Assembly: GCA_001600875.1 (NCBI GenBank)
Contig: BCLD01000001.1
Location: forward strand, 306,162 to 370,161
DNA length: 64,000 nt
From: Solicoccozyma terricola
Taxonomy: Eukaryota; Basidiomycota; Tremellomycetes; Filobasidiales; Piskurozymaceae
Direction of reading: 5' to 3'
Under the pieces are notes generated by a model that did no database searches, had not been told where the DNA came from, and was given only the letters and a program-made list of their open reading frames with translations. Of this stretch, positions 4,008 through 23,620 are shown piece after piece. The translations under genes and the position numbers were made by a program. Position 1 is the stretch's first letter. Every line of letters begins with the position of its first letter.

Positions 4008-7000
4008 TTAGTTCTGAGCCATTCTGAAATCCTGTCTCCATTTCTCATTGCTTTCCAGTTGTTTGACAACAGCGTAAAATTTTGGGTTTTGAATCTCGTT
4101 CGTGAGGTGGTAGAGTGGGACGATGGCGCGAATAGCGGAACGCTGCATCTCCTCCTGCAAGTGCAAAGAAAAATGCATGTGAGCGTACAATCGAAGTAGC
4201 AGATTCCTCGGCGGCCATACGCACGTTCCGCTGAATATCCTGAGCCATTGAATCCTTCTTCGTGACGGTGATGTCTTGCATTGTAACAGTGATACCCTCT
4301 GCGCAATCGTCCAGACGTGCTAAAACCGACGTGGGCGCGACTTGAGCGAGGCGGTGCAGGGACATGTAACAGAGTACCTTGACGTCATCGAGGTCCTTCA
4401 ATCCACTTATAACTCTGTCGAGGAACTCGTTCACGTCGACGCGGGAGAGGCAAGTGGAAAGCTGCCAAAAATGGGATGCATCAATCAGCTTACTGTTGCA
4501 TAAGAGGATAGACGCAGTCTCTGACTCACCAGAATAGACATGGCTTCGAACGCGCCCTTTCTGTTTTCGAGCCCGTCGTCCATTTCGACTGGCGGTTTTG
4601 AACCCCACATGAGAAGGAAGTACAGGCCGTTCGCTTCAATGTGCGTGACTCACTGGTGAATGGGCCCATAGGAATCTTGCGGATCAGCTCGGGACGCACT
4701 TCGGTCTCTTTCAAGAGCAGCGGTAGAAGCGACGGGAGATGATCTTGTAAGAGGTACGGCTTGTGTTGGGCAGCTGCGCTGAAAGCAGCCACAGCGAGTC
4801 TCCGGACGACCTAGAGAAGACGACGTCATTCAACGCGGCAGAGGAGTAAGTATCTCGAGTATTCTCACATGTTCCGAGTCACCCATGAGAGAGAGGAAGT
4901 TGAAAATGAGCGGCGCAAGGATCTCGTCGAAGGAGTCTGAAGTATCGATGAATGCGTATCGAACTGCAGAAGCGACGGTGGCCCTCGTCCCAGCTTCGCT
5001 GGCGGTGACTCGTGCCTACGGTAGGTCAGATGTCAGAGATTTTTCCGAATGACGTAACTTGTAGCGCGACTCACCTGTAATTCTGGCAAGTATCGTGCAG
5101 GTCTCGTCGTGGTCAACTTGCCAAGAATCGCTGCCTTGACGTTCCGTGCACCATCGTCCTGACCAACGGAGTCGTCACTGAGGAGGGGTGACCAGAGGGT
5201 GTCGGCAACTCCCTCGAGCTGAGCAGGCGAGCAATGTAGGATAGCCTGTGGAAGGGGTAGAAGTCAGGAATATGGGAGGCTTCCGAGAGATAAAGTGGGA
5301 GAATGACTCGCCTCCTTCAGACTATGCAAGTACAAGAGTCGCATACCGGAGGAAGATGCGCCAGAAACTTGCTCCACAATGTTCGGCAAGTACTCCGGAA
5401 CATTGCCGACAGCGATATTGCCTTGAGATTCAACATTGATTAGCTGACATGTATAGCAGGACGGAGATTTGATAATAAACGCACCTGCGGCAAATGCCGC
5501 CGCACTCTTGATCTCTTCGACGGGCGAAGTATAACACTTGAGGACTCGAGGGAAAACGTCGGGTGCGAATGACATATCGCTGTGAGGATCATCAGATATA
5601 TGTTGCCACCAGGACTTAACAATAAACTCTACCACTCACATAGACCGTCCAACTTCACCCAGGGTCAACAAAGAAAGGTATTTCGCAGTATCAGGAGTTT
5701 TGGAGGACTGTCGAATGAAACGTAAGCGTGAAGGGCATTCAATTTCGACCCACAGGACATACCCTTAGTAGTTCGGAGTATTCTAGAATCAAATCCTGAG
5801 TTCGTAGACCTGACCGAAGTATAGCCACACCGCTACATTTGGCGACGGTCGCATATGCGTGCACTCCCCCCTTAGCTGCGGTAGGGATTGTCGTAGCGTT
5901 GCCTAGCGTTTCCCTCATCTTTTCCACCAATGTCACACCTACCGACGGATCAGTGGCCACATAGGCCGCGATAAAGGCCAACAAAGCATCGAGGGCGACT
6001 CCGTTGACCAACGAGGACTGCATGAGTACCATTACCTGAGGCATAAGCTGCGTGTCGACTGTGTTGCGGAGACTGGGCTGGGCTTGCATGAGAATGACGG
6101 CTGCGTGTAGTGAGAGTGGGAGATTGACAAGGTCGGTATCCACCACGAAGCTGCGCAACTCGACTGCGATGGCTTCTGCCGTATGAAGTGGAAGATTTGC
6201 GCCGACTCTGTGGAGAAGTAGGTCACTCAGAACGCGAATTTGGCAAGGCTCATCGAGTGGTAGCTCACCGATTCATCAGCGAAGGTAATGCGTGCAGAGC
6301 GGTTGTTTTAGTGGGCTTTTGACCACGTCTAAAGATCATCGGGAGCTGCTCCAGAACCGTATTCAACCACATCTCAAACACCTGGCCCTGACAATTGGGC
6401 GACTCGGCAATGTCCGCGATAACCTTGAGAGCGGTGAGCTGCGTAGAGTCGTTGCTCAGCCTCGCAGTGATAGTTGGCAGACATTCCTGAAATTGCGAGT
6501 GCAAAGAATCACCCTCAAATGCGAGAAGATCGCCCAAGGTGGACAATGCTTGCTCCTTGACATCGGCATCTGCAGAGGTATCTGAAAGGACGGCATAGGT
6601 TCCCGAGTAAATCAGCTGGAGACTCGAACCATATGTGTTTGGTAAAGGCGATGTGTTGCCTGATCGGGCTTGAGGTCGAAGTCCTCTAGCGAGGTTTGAG
6701 GCGGAAGCGAAGGCCTCCAGACTGATTCTGTGGTACCTGTTCGACATGGCTTTGACTATGATCGGCACGAGTTGATTTTGGATGTCGGCATATACCTTGG
6801 GTGGGTGAGTCCGGAAAAAGACGCCGAGGAAAGAGAGAACAGTGGCTGCGAGTCCAGCTGATGCTGCACCTCCGAGTGCTGAGCCATCTGCGGCCGCCAT
6901 AGCCGATCGAACACTGGTTGCCACTGCTCCTGCCTGGTTCTCTAGTCCACCACCAACGGCTTCAGTGAGGGCTTTGAGAACTACGAAGCTTTTTTCCTTG

Positions 7001-9074
7001 GTAGGGATGGACTTGCTCATCGATTGTTTGAGAATCGCCTTGGATAACGCTGGAACTTGCGCGATGAGCGGGTTGCTCCTGGGGACGCAGAAAGGAACTG
7101 TCAGCATGTCATGAAATAGGGAACCTCTCGCGAAAAAGGCGAACTGACGTATCCAAGGAATGCTGAGGATCACTATCCAGCCTCTTCCTCTTCAACGTCG
7201 TCGGTGCCTCTCCAGCCCCGACCGATTCCCCATACACCGTCGTCTGCCGTAGCAGTACCTCCCAAGCGGCGAATACCTCCAATCTCACGCTCTCCTCACG
7301 CTCGTTCAATCGAGAGATGAGGAGCGGAGACACTGAAATATACCATTCGTTTAGCATCTCAGGACGAGTGCCGATAAGCGCTTGGAGGAGACGCGCGGAG
7401 GAGCGTCTGGCTTTCCACGAGGTGTCTTCATCGTCTGTGTATCTGCAAGCGGGAGGCGGTTGGAAGAGTGTTCATACCTAACTCTTGGGAGACAGGCACA
7501 TACTGATCTTCAAATTCATCATCATCCATCGTCTCATCGTCTCCATCCTCCATCTCCTCGTCTTCTTCATCATCACCACCAGCATAATTCTGCCGGGACA
7601 GTAAGTGAGCGATTTTGAAACTGATAACGTCCCCGGCCCCGCGGAACTCACTGGGTCGTATTTCAACAACGTCGTCGCTCTCTCTACGATCTGACTCAAA
7701 AACGGCGTAATTTCTATCGGACACCTCAAAGTAAGAACCTCCAATGTCTGGGTCCAGGAAGCTCGTCAGCTGACCAAGGATGTCCGGACACTGACACTTC
7801 CCATCCCAAATCCCCATCGTCACACTTACCGTCAATCCACTCTCCACGGCTTCCTCGTCCTCCATTTCAAATGTCAACCCCAGAATCCCATTAATTAATC
7901 CGTTCAGAATCGGTCCCACTCTTCCTGGCATGACTTTCGCCAATCCACCGACAAGCTGAGCATACGCGACTTTCTTTGGATCATTTTTCGTCCCTTCTTG
8001 GAGTACCATTTCAAGAGACTGGCTGAGTGAGTCGAATACCTTACTTTCGGAGACTGGGAGTAAATATCCGAGGGAGATGATGGCTCTTTTTCGGATATGC
8101 GTTCGGGATGAAGAGAGGAGGGAGAGGAGGGCGGTTAGACAGGCGGATTGAAGAGCGGGTCGAGATGTGATTCGGGCGGGGAATCGTTGAAATAGCAGAG
8201 TGAGAATGTCGATCAATTCTACGGCGTGTTGAGTCGGTATCTCAGGCTGTTTTTGTTTGGGGAAAGTGACATGGAAGAATGAATCGTCGTCAGCAGAATA
8301 CCTTCTCCTCAAGTGCGAAAAGACACGAACACTTGATAATTGCTTGATGATGTTGCTCACGGATTTGTCAACGACATCTCCAGCTACAGGGCTCGAAGGT
8401 GGCATCTCTGTCAAGACGGCACGAAGAGCCAACGTTCCGATATCTCTCTTCTCCTCTTCATCGCTCCCAGTCTGAATCAACAACTTGGTTATTGAAGTAG
8501 CTATCAGTTGGGATTTCTGACATATGTATGTCAACGCCGCCAGTCTGTGCAGATAAACGCAGGATTGTATGCGTCAGTATCCGATTTTGGCATTAGTCTA
8601 TGACCAACTCCCTCAACTCACGCATCGACAGCCTTGTTCTTCACCTCTGAATTAGAATCATCAACCATCTCCCCGACAATCTCAAACAACTGTCTTTCAG
8701 TCGGTTCATCGAGATGGTAAATCGAAGCTCCGGAATTCATTTTCTTAGCTGGTGAGGAAGTGGGAAGTGCCTTGGCTGCTGATGCGGAGGTGGGAAGGGT
8801 GGGAGTTTGCGTACGGATCTCTTTGACTAGGTCGATTAGAGCCATGCATCTGAGCAAGCAGGACGTATCAGGAGCAAGCAGAACATACTATGATACCATA
8901 GAGGTGGAATAAAGGCTCACCGAAAATCAGCATCGGGGGACTTCATCTGTGTGCGACGGTCATCACGGTTAGCAGTCTGGTAAACCACCGCGATTGTTGG
9001 ATGATTAGAGATGGAAAGTACTGTACCTTGTCGATGTAAGACCTGAGCTGGGTGGAATTCATGGTCCTGGCCAT
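4008..9074 (-). CDS. CAND1: Cullin-associated NEDD8-dissociated protein 1 (CAND1/TIP120)
   Basis: HEAT-repeat solenoid that binds unneddylated cullin-RING cores and exchanges substrate adaptors. The start chosen is ATG at 9074 (MARTMNSTQLRSYIDK); a second in-frame ATG lies four codons on. The second exon gives MKSPDADFR, like the CAND1 N-terminus. Diagnostic parts in order: an acidic loop of Asp/Glu between HEAT repeats (about 7510-7590), ISRLNEREESVRLEVFAAW (near 7300), GNIAVGNVPEYLPNIVEQ and LLYLHSLKE (5330-5440), IPMGPF (near 4670), and the C-terminal block RSAIRAIVPLYHLT ending with TAA at 4008-4010. Many short introns interrupt it. It lies tail-to-tail with RFC1 (141 bp) and head-to-head with the aminoacyl-tRNA synthetase fusion. 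An importin-beta was considered, but the match runs along the full CAND1 length including both ends. Confidence 0.94.
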
Positions 9075-9276
9075 GATGACTGTGACAGCTGTGGACGTTG
9101 GTGTACGAGGATGATGACCCCCCTGGTTGAGTTGGACGAGGTGGACAACTACTCATGTGGACGGGGATGCATCGCCGCACCTGCTCATCCCGATTTCCCG
9201 AATTTCCTGCTAGATGGTCCATTAACCATCGGTTTCAACTCGTCGTACCACTTCTCGCTATCATCCCAACCCCAAG
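9075..9276. promoter_or_regulatory. Compact divergent promoter CAND1 / Glu-Tyr-tRNA synthetase
   Basis: Only 202 bp separate the two start codons, which point away from each other, so both transcripts must initiate in or very near this stretch. I see no clear TATA box. The half nearest the synthetase is pyrimidine-rich, as is common in 5' leaders here. This is inferred from geometry, not from a recognised motif. Confidence 0.5.
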
Positions 9277-12200
9277 ATGCTCATCCACCAGCATCGTCAT
9301 TCAACTCGTCTCTTGTCTAATCGACTTCCGCTTTACCCTTCCGCACATCGCCTGTTCAATCGTCAAATCCACCACTCGTCACCTCATGACCTCGCACTCC
9401 CACAACCATCTTCACCTGCTCCATCCTCGGATCGTCCGGTCAGACTCAGATTTGCGCCATCCCCTACGGGTTATCTTCACCTCGGTGGTCTTCGCACAGC
9501 TCTCTTCAATCACCTCCTAGCTCGTAAATGGGGTGGGAAATGGATATTACGAATCGAAGACACGGATAGAGCCAGGTTTGTCCCTGGATCAGTGGAGAGT
9601 TTGGTAAAGACATTGGAATGGGCTGGATTAGACTTTGATGAAGGACCTGGGAGGAAGGAGAGTGTAGGTCCATATATGCAGGTGAGTCCTGGAGCATGAT
9701 AGCATATGAATCAGTCGCTGATCTCTTGTTCAGTCCGAGAGACTAGGGTTATATCACCGACACATACAAACACTCCTAGACGTACGACAACCCCTTCATC
9801 TCTTTATAATATTCCATCGCTGAATCGTACTTTTACTTTTACTCTCATTATATCAGCAAGACAAAGCTTACCGATGTTTCTGTCCACCATCTAAATTGGC
9901 TGAAATTCAACAATCTCAACTCAAATCTCGTCAAACGAGTAGTTATGATGGTACATGTCGACATCTCACTGATGAAGAGGCTACTCGACGGAGAAAGGCT
10001 GGAGAGAAGTCTGTTGTTAGATTCAAGGTGAGTGTATATGAAGCCGGCGTGGTAGATGATCACTGGGATTGGCGACCGACTGGAAAATTCGCCAAAAGAA
10101 ATCTCAAGAAGCGCAATACTGAATCACTTTTTTGCATTGGCGAACTCAGTCGCAAAAGAACAGACAACCAGTTCCTGAGGATCTGATATTCGGATCTGCC
10201 AATGATCTCAGTGGTCAACGGCGATCCTCACCTATCGTTCAAACTTCTTTACCATATTCGGTATCTGAAATCACATCGCCTCTCCTTCCTCCCACAAACG
10301 AAACATCTATACATCCGGATGCCAAAGTGCAAGGTCATTTATTTGGTGGAGGGGACGATCTTGATGATTTCATTCTTTTGAAATCAGATGAATTTCCAAC
10401 TTATCATTTCGCAAGTGTGGTGGACGATTTTGAGATGGGTATCTCGCACGTCTTACGAGGAGAGGTCAGTCTTGCTACTCTTCTTCCTTTCTTCTTGAGT
10501 GAGGATAATGCTGATGTGGCGCCTGATATACTTTGGGGACGCTTAGGAATGGCTACCATCGACAACGAAACATATTCAGCTTTATCATGCACTAGGTTGG
10601 CAACCGCCAAAGTTCGGGCATTTACCATTGTTGGTCAACCCGAATGGTACCAAGTTGAGTAAGAGGAGTGGAGATGTCCAAGTCGAGGATTACATCGTGA
10701 GTACCATAAAAGTCGGGCCTTCTTGTTATGAGTTTCTTATGAAAGTTGTGATGGTAATAACAGAAACGAGGTTACGAACCAGACGCGTTGCTAAATTTCT
10801 TAGCATTGATGGGATGGGATCACCTCAACTCGGCCTCCCAGAGTCCAACGACCGTTCCATTCTTCCCTCCATCGGACAATCCCGATATGCTGATGGAGGA
10901 GACCTCCTCCAACGAGTTGTTCACCATGACCGGTCTCGTCGAGGCGTTTGATCTCAAGTACATCACCAGGAGACGTGCGATTGTTAATTTTGACAAGTTG
11001 GATTGGGTGAATAGGATGCATCTAAGAAGGCAGCTTATGCTGCCGGGGGACGCGGGGAGGAATGGTCTCGTGCTGAGATTTAAGGGATTCTTGAAGGATA
11101 TGAAGGTTTTGAGTGGAAATCCCTTGATAGAAGACGCTGCGTATGTGGACCAGGTCATGGATGCAGAGTTGGTGGGTGATTTGAGTCGGACCCGGGTCGC
11201 GTAGTCGCCAACTGACATGTTTGGGCTCGTCTTAGTCTCGAGTCAAGACGCTTTCGGAACTGCCAAAGCATGCTATACATTATTTCCTGCCACCCCGTTA
11301 TGAGAATCCGGAGGCTAAGAAGCTCCTTGCATCTGTGCAACCAAAAGATTATGGTACGTACTGCTACCTGTACCACACCTATTTTTGTGCTCATACATCC
11401 CGTCTCCCTCTCCCTCAGTCCAAGCGCTCGAAGCGGTACTGAAGGAGCTCGAATCGCAGGATAAGCAGGCCCCGTGGGACTACGACAGCATCTGGGAGGT
11501 CATACACAAGGTCATCGCGGATTTAGGTTACAAGCGAAAACCACAGCTTATTACACCTCTGAGACATGCGATCACTGGTCGAACTGTGAGAGGATCAACG
11601 ACGGAAGGTTGTTTACGGTTGCTGACTTCCGCATTCACCAGTCCGGAGCTTCTCTCCCTCTCACTATGTCGATAATTGGTCGTGATGCTTCCATTGAACG
11701 ATTGCGTCTGGCTCTCGATTACGTTGGACATGTGCGGGAGGGGCCAGCTGAAGCGAGCGATGTGAAAGAAGAGATATCTTCGTCGGTTGACCCAAGCAAG
11801 GGAAACTACAACGTCATCGAAGAATTGAAAAACAGAGGATTTGTGCAAGCACTGACTAGGTGGGTGGCGTCCGCGATTGATGTGTTAAATGGCTTTCAAC
11901 TGACATTCAAAGTAGCCCTTCGATTGCCGATGCCGCCTCAAACGGAGCTTGTGTATACTCAGGCGTGGATCCTTCGGCCAGTTCACTGCATCTGGGCAAT
12001 TTGCTACCCTTGCTCGTTCTCCTCCATTTTCAACTTGCTGGAAACAAAGTGCTAGCTCTGGTGAGTTCTGGTGAAAATCTTACTGGCTCCTCAGATTTAC
12101 AGCTGAATGTTGCTTGTGTTCTACCAGATCGGCGGCGCGACAGGTTCTATCGGAGATCCCTCTGGTCGATCATCGGAGAGAAATGCTCTCAGCCGGGAGG

Positions 12201-13584
12201 AGCTGGACCACAACGTCAAGGCGATCCACAATCAAGTCCGGATATTCTTCGACCGAGGTCTAGCTTACGCCAAACGCAGAATACCTGACAACGGGGCGGT
12301 TTTAGGCGAGAAAAGGATCCTGAACAACTTGGATTGGACTCAGGAGGTGACCTTACTGGACTTTCTGAGAGGTGTTGGAAAGCACTCTCGAGTAAACACG
12401 ATGTTGGCTAGAGACAGGTGAGCCGTGCACTTCCTCTTGTTCCTGAGCACATTTCGGCTGACGTTTAATCCAATCAGTGTCAAAAACCGTCTCGCCTCCG
12501 AGTCCGGTATCTCGTTCACCGAGTTTACTTATCAGCTTCTGCAGGCTTTTGATTTCCGACAATTGCACTACGATCACCGGTGTCAGATCCAGGTCGGGGG
12601 GTCTGACCAATGGGGAAACATCGTTGCGGGTATCGATCTCATCAAGCGTTCCAAGGCAGCGTCGGCGGCAGCAGCGGGACTTCCAGAGCCCCCTGCTGAG
12701 GATCCAGCTTTCGGCTTGACGATACCTCTGCTCACAACCAGCTCTGGAGAGAAATTTGGAAAGAGCGCAGGCAACGCTCTGTGGCTGGATTCTGCTCTGA
12801 CTAGCGTGACGACTTTCTACCAGGTCAGTTCGATGAGCTGCTGGAGGTCTAGTGTATCCGATCTGACGTTTCGTATGACCCCTACAGTATTTCTTCCGTA
12901 GCGCCGACGCCGACGTCGAAAAATATCTTAAGCTCTTTACTATGTTGCCTCTCGAGGAGATCACGCAAGTCATGGAGCGACATAACGTAAGCGTTTGCGT
13001 CTAGCTTGGCACACCAATCCCGCTGACGACTGCGGCTCTAGGCCGATCCACGGAGACGAGAAGCGCAACGCTTGTTGGCGGATGAGGTGACACATCTCGT
13101 CCACGGCGGTAAGCGCTAGACGGCTACCTGCGGAGAGCCTACACACTGACGTATTGGCATCAATTAGCGGACAAACTTGCAAGAGCGCAGACCGCCATGA
13201 GGGTCCTTTTCGACTCGGACATCAGCTTGTTGTCACCCGACGCCGTCGCCGCTGCCTTTGAGGGAGACCCAAGGTTGTTCAAGGCGCCGAGAGCAGAGTT
13301 GATCGATGTAGCTCTACCTCGACTGATAGCGAGCGCAAAACATGCCCGCTCCAAGAGTACGTCTACCGTAGTCACATTATCTGCATTCGCTGCAAAAAAT
13401 TGACCCGCCTTTTGCGCCTGCAGGCGAGGCCGCTAGACTCATCAATGGAGGCGGGGTCTCTCTGAACGGAGTCAAGGTTGACAATGCAACTGCAAAGTTG
13501 CTCCAATCGGATCTTCATCAAGCCAAGTTCGCCGTTTTGCGAATCGGCAAAGCATCTCACATTATCATCTATGCGACGGACTAA
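9277..13584 (+). CDS. Mitochondrial glutamyl-tRNA synthetase / tyrosyl-tRNA synthetase fusion
   Basis: One reading frame of 3,300 nt (1,099 aa) across 16 exons: 9277-9681, 9734-9781, 9857-10027, 10150-10464, 10547-10696, 10764-11171, 11236-11353, 11419-11585, 11642-11859, 11913-12060, 12128-12417, 12478-12823, 12888-12986, 13042-13108, 13168-13356, 13424-13584. Every junction is GT-AG and keeps frame. Residues 1-50 are Arg/His/Ser-rich, like a mitochondrial presequence. Residues 55-624 are a complete GluRS ([12 protein letters not shown] with the HIGH-type HLGG at 68-71; KLSKR at 349-353; C-terminal anticodon-binding helices). About 24 residues of linker (625-648) contain no Met and no stop. 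Residues 649-1099 are a complete bacterial/mitochondrial-type TyrRS ([12 protein letters not shown] with HLGN 693-696; [14 protein letters not shown] 905-909; C-terminal S4-like domain). By family, the two halves charge mitochondrial tRNA-Glu and tRNA-Tyr. The yeast counterparts MSE1 and MSY1 are separate genes. A single fused product is inferred from sequence; alternative processing is possible. Confidence 0.9.
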
Positions 13585-13686: not shown

Positions 13687-15859
13687 CTATGCAGCAACCT
13701 GCTTGGCCATGTCAGACTTGTGTTGCGATGACCATCCCATGCGCCTCTTCATTTCCTGGACCACGCGACCACGCTCCGCTGCTGCTCCACTTTCACCAGT
13801 GAGCAGTGCTTTGTTCTCTACTGCTCTCCGCCCGAGGTAAGGGAGGACATCGGAGAGCTTGCCGTAAGGCAGATACTTGACGGTCATCGGAATATCATCC
13901 GTGACGAACGCTTCAGCCACTCTCTCGGTCAACTCATCAGCCATGCCTAGAAATTTGTGATGCCCCGTCGTCAGCCTAATTCAAGCCTGTGCCCAGTAGA
14001 CAACACGCACCATACAGTTGACCAACGCAGATCCTTCCTCGTATACCATCAACAGAACGCATCTTCCCTCCGTCCACAGCCTTTGTCAACCCCTTTGCCT
14101 TGAGTTGCTCAAGGATCAGCTCCACCGATTGACGATTATGCGTTCCAAAGAGGACACCGAGTTGAGGGGGTCTACCCGCATTGATATCTTCATGCAATTG
14201 AGAGATGACGACGCTTGTGGCTGAATCATATGCAGCGTCTGTCGCAGGTTTACTAGCAGAGTTTCGAAAGAAAAAAACGTTCTCTTCGGTCAGCATTCTA
14301 TGCAGCCACCTCTTTTCACGTACTGCTACTCACTCTGGCCAAACTGGATCGGGACCCCATCTGATCCTCCCTTCTTTAACCCACCTCCTCCTCTCCTGCT
14401 CATGATACGCCCCACGAACGAGTTTCAATCCTAGGACGTAATCATTTGCTTTGGCGTGAGCGATGGAAGCGGCGATGTGGCTAGGTGTACGTGTGAGGTA
14501 GCATTGATACGTTCCGCTGTGAGACGCAGATGAGAAGGGGTGATTGTGAGTATTCGGGGTAGAGGATGACAGGATCGAGGTGACGCGGGTCTCACTAGAT
14601 CAACGGTGATGGTTCACTCTCCTCCTTGGGTGTCAGCTTGTTAAACTCCTGAGACAGCATCATAGTATAGGCGTCCAACACGGGTTGATACCACGTATGT
14701 TCCGCATCAATCACGATTTTTATCCTGAATCGAATTCCAAGCCATCAGCATCCCTGCCAGTGAACCAATTGAAGGCGCCAAACCCCCACTGCTACCCACC
14801 CATTCTTCTTGGCTCGCTGTCCGATATCCCTCAAACACTCCCAAAGCTCTCTCAACGCAGATTCATCACCCTCTCTTACTCCTTCTTCACCTTGTAAAAC
14901 ACCGCCACCGCCAATTGGATCTTCCATCATCCCGAACGAAGCGAACGCAGATGTGGACGAAGTAGCAAAACATGCAGGTCGAGCTACGATTTGGGTGTCA
15001 AGTGATGTTGATGTTCCCGGGTATGGGATTGTACGTGGGTCGATAGATGGAGATGGTTGTCGATTTCGTAATCGAAGAAGGGAATTTGAAGCTCGATGGA
15101 GGAGATCAGGATCGCGTACGAGTCCAGTCTAGTGGTGCGGTGGTATGTTGTTTTGTGGTCAGTATGGAACCCCGATGGTAGCAGTGATAAAATAATCGAA
15201 CATTGGACACTTACAATCTTGACAGCCACCCAAGTCCCACCTCTACTCCCACATTTATTCTCAAACAAAGCAGCTTCCTCGATCGCTTTTATCGTCACGT
15301 CGAATTCCCCTTTGTTGATATTCCCACCCATAGTATCATGTTCTCTACCCGGTAACGTCTCTTCATCAACTTCTACGGAATACGCCAACAGCGTACCCAC
15401 ACCTCTATCCCTCAATTCCCTCATCGTATCTTCACAATCCAAAACACTCTCTCCTCCTACGAATTGCTTGAAGAATGTCTCTCGAATTGCTAGTTCGGTG
15501 AGCGGTTTTACACCAGGTATAGATGATCGAGTGAGTGTTGATAGGATGTATGGAGAGTTGTCAACGATGGATGGGAAGGAAGTGAGTGTGTATACGAGGT
15601 AAGTTCGGAGAAGGGATGTGAGGGATGCACGGGAGAGAGTTGTAGGTGAGGTCAATTCGGTATCGGCGTGTAGGGAGGTAAAGATGAAGGGTGAAGAGAT
15701 TAGGGTGAGGGAACTGAGAGTACCGATTGCAAGTCGTCGAGACCATCTTGATGTGGTGTTGGATGCAGAGGCGGAGGAAGTATTGCGACGAAAGGTGGAG
15801 CGGAAAGAGGCACGAGTTGTTTCACGTAGTAGCGAGGTATTGAAATATCTGAAAGACAT
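13687..15859 (-). CDS. PUT1: Proline dehydrogenase (proline oxidase), mitochondrial
   Basis: FAD-dependent enzyme of the inner mitochondrial membrane that oxidises proline to pyrroline-5-carboxylate, feeding glutamate synthesis and the respiratory chain. The start at 15859 gives MSFRYFNTSLLR, an Arg/Ser-rich presequence. A hydrophobic stretch follows near residue 50 (GTLSSLTLISSPFIFTSL). The catalytic barrel includes the family motif LKLVRGAYHEQE (near 14420-14450), VLFGTHNRQSVELI (near 14130) and the C-terminal YLPYGKLSDVLPYLGRRAVENK (near 13800-13880). The stop is at 13687. Introns are short. The gene is tail-to-tail with the synthetase fusion (102 bp). Between residues of about 270 and 330 there is a Gly/Ser-rich insertion that other family members may lack. 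Recognition is by the whole-domain match. Confidence 0.93.
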
Positions 15860-20740: not shown

Positions 20741-23620
20741 ATGAAGTCCCTTCGTCGCTCCCTCAACTCCGACAAGAACTCCGCCTCATCGTTCTCTACC
20801 ACCACCTCATCCATTCCCTCCCCTATCCCACTACCTTCAACTTCCTCTGCAGCGCAAGGTGGAAAAGTTCTTCCACCTCAAAAAGTCATTCGCGCTTTGG
20901 CAAGTCACAAATCCCAACTTCCGACTGTACTCAGTTATCAAAAGGGTGATTTCTTCTATGTTAGTGGGGAATTACCACCTGATGAGAATCAGCCTAGTGG
21001 ATGGTATCAAGCTTTGAGTGAGTGATTGGCGTGTATGGAGGAGAAGGGCACGATGAGTGGACGGTTGAACATCGCTGATCCTGCATGTCTTCCTTTGCAT
21101 CCAGATCCCCTCACTGGTTCTCGAGGACGAGTACCCAGAGATGATTTCGAAGAGTTTTTGAAAGGTGGACGAGCGACTAGTGGTACCATGTCAAATAATG
21201 GGTATGTGCTACTTTCCGAGCGTTGCAATTCCCCCTCGTCATTACGTCCTGACCTGCCGAATCACACGCGAATCGCAGACCAAGATCTTCTTCACCTGCG
21301 ATGGCTCATGGTCCAGCTTCAAATTATCAATCTCGTCCTCCATCCGGTGGTCGTGTCGGACCTCCATCAGCTGGATATGTACCCGGTGGTCAGCAACAGC
21401 AGCAACAGCAACAAAACGTTCCAAGAGGTTCCGGAGGTGCAGCACCGGAGAAGAGAACGAATCCGTAGGCGTCGCGGGATCATTGGCTATTTCTGGAATT
21501 GAGCTGATATCGGAATTCGACCGCAGACTGTATGCGATTGTGCAATACGATTTTGAAGCGGAGAGACCTGATGAATTGGATGCGAAAGCTGGAGAGCCTA
21601 TCATTGTTATTGCGCAGAGTAATCATGAGTGGTAAGCCTACCTCTTAATGCGTGAGCTTTTTGTTTGCTTCCCCCGCTTACCCCCCCCCCCCCCCCCCCC
21701 CCCATCTTGTCGTCCCAAGCCTCCGTCGTATTCAACGAGGTCGNNNNNNNNNNNNNNNNNNNNNNNNNNNNNNNNNNNNNNNNNNNNNNNNNNNNNNNNN
21801 NNNNNNNNNNNNNNNNNNNNNNNNNNNNNNNNNNNNNNNNNNNNNNNNNNNNNNNNNNNNNNNNNNNNNNNNNNNNNNNNNNNNNNNNNNNNNNNNNNNC
21901 CCCCCCCCCCCCCCCCTCCCCATTCTGCTGCCATCCTTGAAACAGGTTCGTCGCTAAACCCATCGGCCGATTGGGTGGACCCGGTCTGATCCCCGTATCC
22001 TTTGTTGAAATTCGCGATCCCGTCACGTCTCGTCCGGTCGAAAATGTTCAAGAACTCCTTGCTCGCGGTACTATCCCACAAGTTGAGGAATGGAAGAAAG
22101 CGACGGCGGAGTACAAGGCGTCTAGTATCCCTCTTGGACGATTCGATTTTGCTCCGAATGGTGTTGGGAATAACGTTGGTGGCGGGACGAGCATGAATAA
22201 ATCGTCTGGTTCGGAGGGGTCCGGTGCCGGACCGTCTAATCGTGGTTCCGCTCACGATCAACCTTTGCAAGCTACGATGGCTGGTGGGACGTACGGACCT
22301 CCACCGCCTAGAGAAGAGCGTTCGCAAGAGGCAACGACGAGTGAGACGGCACTCAAGGATGGTCAAATCCTCACGGCCAAAGTAGTTTCATTCCATTACG
22401 AGGCCAACTCTTTCTGGTTTCGAATCAACGCCACCTTCCTCTCTGATGATCCGTCGTTGCCAGCTACGAACCTCGTTCTTTATCGACTCTATGACGATTT
22501 CTACAACTTTCAAATCACACTTCTCGATCTCTTCCCACGTGAAGCAGGTCGTCATACTGGTGATTCGAATGATCCTACTGTTGGTGGTGATCGGATATTA
22601 CCTTATATGCCTGGACCGCTGGAAGATGTCAACGTGGAAATCACCTCTGGAAGAAGAGAAGAATTGAATACGTACCTGCTCGAGTTATTGGCACTTCGTA
22701 GGATGGGAGCTGGATATATACTCTGCCACGATCACGTGCTCGACTTTTTCTCACCTGGACCTGGTGATCAATCTATGCTAGTCCCAAGAGACGAAGCTTT
22801 GGCTGAAGCTGATCGTGGACGGATGGAGGATATACAATTGGAAGAGAGATTGAGGGATATGAACGTTGTCGATAACAACAACAACGATGAAAACGACTAC
22901 GACCACGACCACGACGATGAGCATCGACATTCGAGAGATAGAGAACAAGAGTTCTTTGGGAGGAACAGCGGGAGAGTGCCGTCTTCATCGGGTAACGGAC
23001 GACGTACCCCTTCTACGCATACATCATCTAGAGGAGAATCGCCGATGCCACCACCGCCGCCTCCCGTTGGTTATACTGGCGGTAACAACAACAACAACAA
23101 CAACAACGGAGATGTCAGACCGACTACATCGAATTCAGCTCGATCATCTGGAATAGCGGGTCAAGGAGCATCGGCCGCGGCGGCGTCACAACAAATGATA
23201 TCGCGATCTGGTGATCCGATGTTTTCACCTAGTTCGACTGTCAACACCACAAACTCGTGGGGTAGCGTCAATGCTCAGTCCCAGTCCCAGTCTCAATCGC
23301 AACCACAGCTACCAGGTCCATCTCGTACATCTGGAGCTGTTCAATCTTCTACAGCTGGTGTGAACCCGCCATTCATCAAGATCAAAGTACTCGATCGAAC
23401 AACAGACGACATGATTGCTATACGAGTTCCACCTAAAGTCACATACAATCAATTACTAGAAAAGATTCGAGATAGGCTTGGTAATGCAGTTAGACTTTTA
23501 CAATTTAGAGTGAATGGAGGAGGAGGAGGAGGAGGAGGAGGGTTTGGAGATCTTATTGATGATGAGGGGTTAGCGGAGTGGTTGAGAGTTGAAGAAAAGT
23601 TGGTTCTGTATGCTGAATGA
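20741..23620 (+). CDS. BEM1: Polarity scaffold Bem1/Scd2 (SH3-SH3-PX-PB1)
   Basis: Scaffold that brings Cdc24 (the Cdc42 GEF), activated Cdc42 and PAK kinases together at sites of polarised growth. Start ATG at 20741 (MKSLRRSLNSDK). Domains in order: Ser/Thr-rich N-terminus; first SH3 (ALASHKSQLPTVLSYQKGDFF, split by an intron at 21018-21104); a linker with a polyGln run; second SH3 (LYAIVQYDFEAERPDELDAK, completed after the gap-containing intron by FVAKPIGRLGGPGLIPVSFVEI); PX domain (ILTAKVVSFHYE, YRLYDDFYNFQ, RILPYMPGP, about 22370-22760); a long disordered acidic/His/Asn/Gln linker; and a C-terminal PB1 domain (IKIKVLDRTTDDMIAIRV, 23370-23600), which by family contacts Cdc24. Stop at 23618-23620. 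The intron 21633-21946 contains poly-C and 156 undetermined bases; the coding phase on either side matches. Confidence 0.95.
21681..21916 (+). repeat. Poly-C tract interrupted by an assembly gap (BEM1 intron)
   Basis: C23 (21681-21703), 40 bp of unique sequence, 156 N (21744-21899), then C17 (21900-21916), all inside the intron 21633-21946. The right edge of the gap is pure C, so the true homopolymer may be longer than shown. Confidence 0.9.

Follow-up and report, generated by a model that had tools for sequence, protein, structure and literature searches.

Introduction

EPRS is a cytosolic enzyme, and both domains of the double-length tyrosyl-tRNA synthetase (TyrRS) of parasites are TyrRS domains. 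These two, EPRS of metazoans and the double TyrRS, are named as examples of two-catalytic-domain synthetases in the 2024 AARS Online review (PMC11580382). Another source describes synthetase gene fusions in general as common (PMC13215547). Here, we analyzed a window of 64,000 nucleotides (nt) from the basidiomycete yeast Solicoccozyma terricola (contig BCLD01000001.1, positions 306,162 to 370,161), in which a single gene likely encodes a bifunctional mitochondrial glutamyl-tyrosyl-tRNA synthetase acting as one uncut chain. Like EPRS, its predicted product carries two complete synthetases on one polypeptide, with the glutamyl-tRNA synthetase (GluRS) first and a linker in between. In EPRS, however, the partner is a prolyl-tRNA synthetase (ProRS) and the linker is built of WHEP repeats, as a passage of PMC4394549 describes, whereas the partner in the fused chain is a TyrRS. 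In a further difference from EPRS, both halves of this chain match bacterial-type models, and its target is probably the mitochondrion. Neither ProRS nor the WHEP domain is among the five Pfam matches (E <= 0.001) on the fused protein, which is therefore not an EPRS proper. The pertinent passage of a 2010 survey states that the Glu-Pro fusion was not found in the fungi analyzed (PMC2866331). The likeness to the parasite double-length TyrRS, in turn, lies in the two class I catalytic domains per chain, as given in the review passages (PMC11580382); the difference is that the two domains of the fused chain have different amino acid specificities.

Among fungi, a related arrangement is a fusion of TyrRS to SAICAR synthetase, reported for Cryptococcus, Trichosporon asahii, and Tremella in the relevant part of PMC4301749. 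It likewise joins a fungal TyrRS in frame to another enzyme, but that TyrRS is predicted to be cytoplasmic and the purine enzyme occupies the C terminus (same part of PMC4301749). We rejected this arrangement for the locus under study: all three matches to the SAICAR synthetase domain PF01259 fell on contig C14 (C14:813291-814630), the PRK08560-type TyrRS lies on contig C13, and PF01259 is absent from the fused protein. For Cryptococcus neoformans, PMC4301749 lists separate genes for the mitochondrial GluRS (CNBK2470, 588 amino acids [aa]) and the mitochondrial TyrRS (CNBJ0260, 478 aa); section 10 of that paper once calls CNBJ0260 a SAICAR fusion, in contradiction to its own table. Each half of the fused chain is similar in sequence and domain order to these stand-alone fungal mitochondrial enzymes, which, in contrast, are encoded separately. 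No Glu-Tyr synthetase fusion is described in the titles or abstract openings of the matches listed from open-licence PubMed Central, and an in-frame fungal pair of two different synthetases occurs neither among those matches nor in the passages drawn from the same collection. A Glu-Tyr fusion may nonetheless already sit unremarked in public annotations.

Two predicted synthetases in one reading frame

The initial annotation had described a frame of 16 GT-AG exons summing to 3,300 nt, with a complete class I GluRS (HLGG, KLSKR) followed by a complete TyrRS (HLGN, KFGKS), the two being joined within the exon at 11642-11859 by a linker devoid of stop codons and Met. Rebuilding the gene from the raw sequence returned the same 16 exons in one frame, separated by 15 introns that are all GT-AG and 52 to 122 nt long, but the recount gave 3,297 nt including the stop, one codon fewer, and thus a protein of 1,098 aa and 122 kDa (Table 1). 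All four motifs were recovered along with the family matches detailed below, alignments on both sides bear out the position of the junction, and residues 623 to 650 indeed contain neither a stop nor a Met. The splice pattern is predicted from sequence and homology. A CTGAC branch-like motif occurs near the 3' end of 7 of the 15 introns, introns 8 and 9 included, while five (introns 2, 3, 5, 7, and 10) had no match to the branch motif pattern used.

TABLE 1 Features of the fused gene (positions within the 64,000-nt window)
Feature	Positions	Strand	Description
Whole fused coding span	9277..13584	+	16 exons, 1,098 aa, 122 kDa
Exons 1-8	9277-9681, 9734-9781, 9857-10027, 10150-10464, 10547-10696, 10764-11171, 11236-11353, 11419-11585	+	
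Exons 9-16	11642-11859, 11916-12060, 12128-12417, 12478-12823, 12888-12986, 13042-13108, 13168-13356, 13424-13584	+	
Predicted presequence and bacterial-type (organellar) GluRS	9277..11725	+	Residues 1-622; exons 1-8 plus the start of exon 9
Presequence-like N terminus	9277..9438	+	Residues 1-54: 6 Arg, 7 His, 2 Asp, no Glu
Intron 8	11586..11641	+	56 nt; when retained, the frame ends at codon 624 and the C terminus of GluRS is altered
Exon 9	11642..11859	+	218 nt; an unbroken frame from the final GluRS helices through the linker into the start of TyrRS
Met603	11666..11668	+	Located in the last GluRS domain; no other in-frame ATG occurs between residues 496 and 806
Linker	11726..11809	+	Residues 623-650, 28 aa (84 nt), acidic, no Met or stop
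Predicted TyrRS	11810..13584	+	Residues 651-1098; last part of exon 9 plus exons 10-16; S4-like C-terminal domain
Intron 9	11860..11915	+	56 nt, before the HLGN exon; retention gives a stop at codon 732 and a non-TyrRS tail

The bacterial-type GluRS occupies residues 55 to 622. The chain matched the NCBIfam GluRS model TIGR00464 with 424.7 bits (cut-off, 289.95), and Pfam placed the GluRS/GlnRS catalytic domain (PF00749) from residue 55 and Anticodon_2 (PF19269) at residues 486 to 618, with HLGG at 68-71 and KLSKR at 349-353. Thermus GluRS (1g59) aligned up to its residue 467 of 468, which corresponds to residue 619 of the fused chain. Alignment with solved chains further revealed the equivalents of active-site residues at R58, S62, E94, Y293, R311, and W315. 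This half thus has what defines a GluRS, i.e., a predicted class Ib catalytic domain, HIGH- and KMSKS-like motifs, and Anticodon_2.

The TyrRS half was recognized by TIGR00234 with 343.1 bits (cut-off, 113.8). Its Pfam matches comprise the Trp/Tyr synthetase catalytic domain (PF00579) at residues 680 to 997 and the TyrRS C-terminal and S4 domains (PF22421 and PF01479) at 1030 to 1093; HLGN lies at 692-695 and KFGKS at 904-908. Alignments to solved structures start at residues 649 to 654 in 21 of the 26 rows listed, the remaining ones starting at 621 (5ihx), 674 (2pid), and 679-680 (three distant chains). One of the aligned structures, 1y42, which we take to be the mitochondrial TyrRS of Neurospora crassa, matched from residue 650 with an E value of 1.2e-81. 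Active-site equivalents are present at Y681, D685, D725, Y830, Q834, D837, D855, and Q856, and here, as in the GluRS half, we assume the catalytic roles usually assigned to these positions. A predicted class Ic catalytic domain, a KMSKS-like motif, and an S4-like C-terminal domain identify this half as a TyrRS. With two apparently complete synthetases that differ in specificity and share a reading frame, the predicted product qualifies as a dual aminoacyl-tRNA synthetase.

The junction lies within one exon

GluRS homology stops near residues 619 to 625, and TyrRS homology begins near residues 649 to 654. Because the end of GluRS, the linker, and the start of TyrRS all fall within exon 9, the fusion needs no splice choice, and loss of this 218-nt exon by skipping would disrupt the frame. 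Only in the fused frame does the linker look like coding sequence. Its codon usage score, trained on the rest of the fused gene, was +3.64 in that frame, versus -5.92 and -5.64 in the two other forward frames, both of which contain stops; the reverse complement scored -0.38. The same score was reached by 43 of 5,000 base shuffles and by 20 of 927 joined-intron windows, and 346 of the 1,071 coding windows of the fused gene score no higher than the linker. It is hardly credible that two adjacent genes have been misread as one through an artifact of the assembly or the gene model, since GluRS and TyrRS homologies lie in frame, 84 nt apart, inside a single 218-nt exon of a 2.43-Mb contig, and the spliced frame stays open, with no earlier stop, up to the end of TyrRS.

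Exon 9 and its flanking introns also bear on whether isoforms could be produced beside the fusion, i.e., a stand-alone GluRS by retention of intron 8 or early polyadenylation and/or a separate TyrRS initiated at Met603 or transcribed from an internal promoter. Retention of intron 8 would indeed bring in a stop at codon 624, Met603 has an A at -3, and the GluRS-only form of animal EPRS is said in a passage of PMC4394549 to arise by polyadenylation. However, the product of intron 8 retention would have its last GluRS helices swapped out, eleven in-frame ATGs precede Met603, and the 30 residues from this Met have a net charge of -1, with 5 acidic residues. We also enumerated the alternative joins from any ATG from position 11100 on, through any GT, to the acceptor of exon 10. 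The frame stayed open in 21 of them. Three of these begin at Met603, whereas the remaining 18 would require introns of 154 to 775 nt, which exceeds the 52 to 122 nt of this gene. Such isoforms are thus very unlikely. A TyrRS start inside its own domain is likewise disfavored, as there is no in-frame Met between residues 603 and 807, and Met807, the next one, is already beyond the HLGN motif. Retention of intron 9 was rejected as a source of a useful product, given that the frame would run into a non-TyrRS tail and end at codon 732.

Targeting signals and the possibility of internal cleavage

The N terminus begins with a basic stretch whose first 37 residues include no acidic ones. An R-x-I-x-x-S match at Arg29, a pattern also found at residues 994 and 1050, presumably resembles a two-step presequence cleavage site. 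Charge was profiled in 25-aa windows with a crude index of our own, which is not a trained predictor; the best N-terminal window scored +5, a value exceeded by 1 of the 1,074 windows of the chain. The first ATG is preceded by an A at -3 and is followed by a second in-frame ATG only at residue 134, so that a leaky second start is not evident here, unlike in the dual-localized synthetases of Cryptococcus, which use one according to a passage of PMC7049704. The type of the two enzymes and the presequence-like N terminus suggest that the fused protein is probably mitochondrial.

The main alternative to a chain that remains whole is a tandem precursor. Import of the joint chain would then be followed by cleavage within or close to the linker, with the mitochondrial processing peptidase releasing separate GluRS and TyrRS. 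Yeast Arg5,6 provides a fungal precedent, with two mitochondrial enzymes in one imported precursor (PMC8847149, in a passage citing Friedl et al. 2020), and internal signals and cleavage sites have also been found in silico for Rsm22-Cox11, Etp1, and Atp25, as reported in the same pages (PMC8847149). Arg5,6 is cut internally, again according to that source, whereas for the fused chain the charge index points neither way. On the one hand, residues 574 to 603 form an acid-free, basic stretch (net +5) that ends 20 residues before the start of the linker, and the windows starting at 574-577 score +5, which equals the N-terminal best; this stretch just upstream of the linker counts against an uncut chain. 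On the other hand, it lies inside the conserved Anticodon_2 domain (486-618), and the index is not specific, because windows starting at 68-69 (+5) and 192-194 (5 to 7) score as high or higher. The junction itself is acidic, the windows starting at 595 to 650 having a best score of -1 and a mean of -6.1, compared with -3.0 for the whole chain on this crude measure. The charge index therefore fits an N-terminal signal while leaving room for internal processing, and we consider cleavage into two enzymes possible but improbable.

Related genes in the assembly

We searched the 23.9-Mb assembly (33 contigs) for further copies of either enzyme; only the best candidates were scored in these searches, and some stretches of the assembly read N. 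The GluRS/GlnRS domain gave 12 matches, four at the fused locus, three at C1:1.866 Mb, and five at C2:0.122 Mb. The Trp/Tyr domain gave eight, two at the fused locus, two on C13, and three plus one at two sites on C12. Seven single-exon frames were taken from the five loci other than the fused one; being fragments, they all scored below their family cut-offs. The best match was an archaeal GluRS model for the two frames on C1, GlnRS for the frame on C2, and the TyrRS model PRK08560 for the frame at C13:702607-703330. On C12, tryptophanyl-tRNA synthetase (TrpRS) models matched best, namely, trpS for the two frames of L020 (C12:720806-721941; C12:0.72 Mb) and PRK12285 for the frame of L021 (C12:246434-246637; C12:0.246 Mb). 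We take PRK08560 and PRK12285 to be archaeal/eukaryotic-type models; the trpS-type TrpRS on C12 is perhaps mitochondrial. The assembly thus has two TrpRS genes, one of them of the trpS type, in contrast to Cryptococcus, in which a passage of PMC7049704 describes a single dual-localized TrpRS produced from a single locus. Together with the missing TyrRS-SAICAR fusion, this makes a Cryptococcus source improbable.

Searches of the genome with each half of the fused chain pointed in the same direction. All seven matches to the TyrRS half and eight of the nine to the GluRS half fell at the fused locus, the ninth being the GluRS on C1, with 37% identity. Among the best candidates scored, the assembly yielded no further GluRS or TyrRS of organellar type, and the domain and half-chain searches together disfavor such a copy elsewhere. 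A scan of viral contigs with the TyrRS half returned no match. GatB is present, with matches in four pieces at C27:64469-65848. No mitochondrial contig was evident in the assembly. Positions 71 to 171 of the COX1 model matched twice (C5:361370-361732 and C20:186027-186389), with no other COX1 match; these are perhaps nuclear copies of mitochondrial DNA.

A probable bifunctional organellar synthetase

Two seemingly complete halves share one frame, and the searches of the assembly returned no other organellar-type copy of either. The fusion reading is thus well supported, and so is the mitochondrial Glu-Tyr fusion put forward in the initial annotation. We favor, with somewhat less assurance than the bifunctional mitochondrial enzyme as such, an organelle-dedicated dual synthetase that stays fused in the matrix as a TyrRS homodimer with two GluRS arms. 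In this scheme, a single precursor would be imported via its N-terminal presequence, which would then be removed while the chain is kept whole. The GluRS half would charge mitochondrial tRNA-Glu and, because GatB is encoded, probably also tRNA-Gln for a GatB-type transamidation route, whereas the TyrRS half would charge mitochondrial tRNA-Tyr, as expected from its family. TyrRSs of the bacterial/mitochondrial type are homodimers, and the mature enzyme would accordingly dimerize via its TyrRS cores and carry two GluRS arms, each tethered by a 28-residue linker. Provided that a single chain is indeed made, both enzymes would be produced in equal amounts and imported by one presequence.

In addition to the basic stretch upstream of the linker, several observations weigh against or limit this reading. 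The GluRS half has Ser297 at a position where all three solved GluRS chains shown carry Asn, and the HLGN of the TyrRS half ends in an Asn that none of the seven distinct aligned TyrRS chains has as the fourth residue (HIGH, HAGH, HVGH, and HIGS). The predicted AlphaFold structure of exon 9 alone (pLDDT, 49) carries no weight and is uninformative on the linker. GatC had no match in the assembly, where a 66-position domain split by introns could escape the search; fungi have GatF in place of GatC. Finally, the absence of a second organellar copy is not absolute, because of the restriction to the best candidates and the stretches that read N.

If the reading is true, decoding of Glu, Gln (via transamidation), and Tyr in one mitochondrion would depend on just one gene and the one protein imported from it. 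The title of a paper on EPRS, cited in the AARS Online review, suggests a metabolic reason for such pairs, and a Glu-Tyr fusion would help to test whether dual-synthetase pairs need such a reason or arise by chance gene adjacency. It would also make it possible to study in yeast the relative amounts of two organellar enzymes, their import, and the architecture of their dimer.

Neighboring genes

Elsewhere in the window, a stretch of N at about 21730-21900 was placed from a run of X in the minus-strand frame 21638-22387, and a PX-domain match in the plus-strand frame 21941-23620 falls just short of the cut-off (20.2 versus 21.6 bits). Upstream of the fused gene, a CAND1-like match (PF25782, 69.4 bits) lies on the minus strand at 6265-7191. 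The minus-strand frames 7428-8573 and 8917-9234 have no Pfam match and were assigned by eye to this CAND1-like gene, which would be divergent from the fused gene. On the other side, a convergent gene that resembles proline dehydrogenase lies at 13687-14329 of the minus strand; one of its frames matched PF01619 with 41.9 bits (cut-off, 27) and the other, below cut-off, with 25.0, and its stop lies about 100 nt beyond that of the fused gene.

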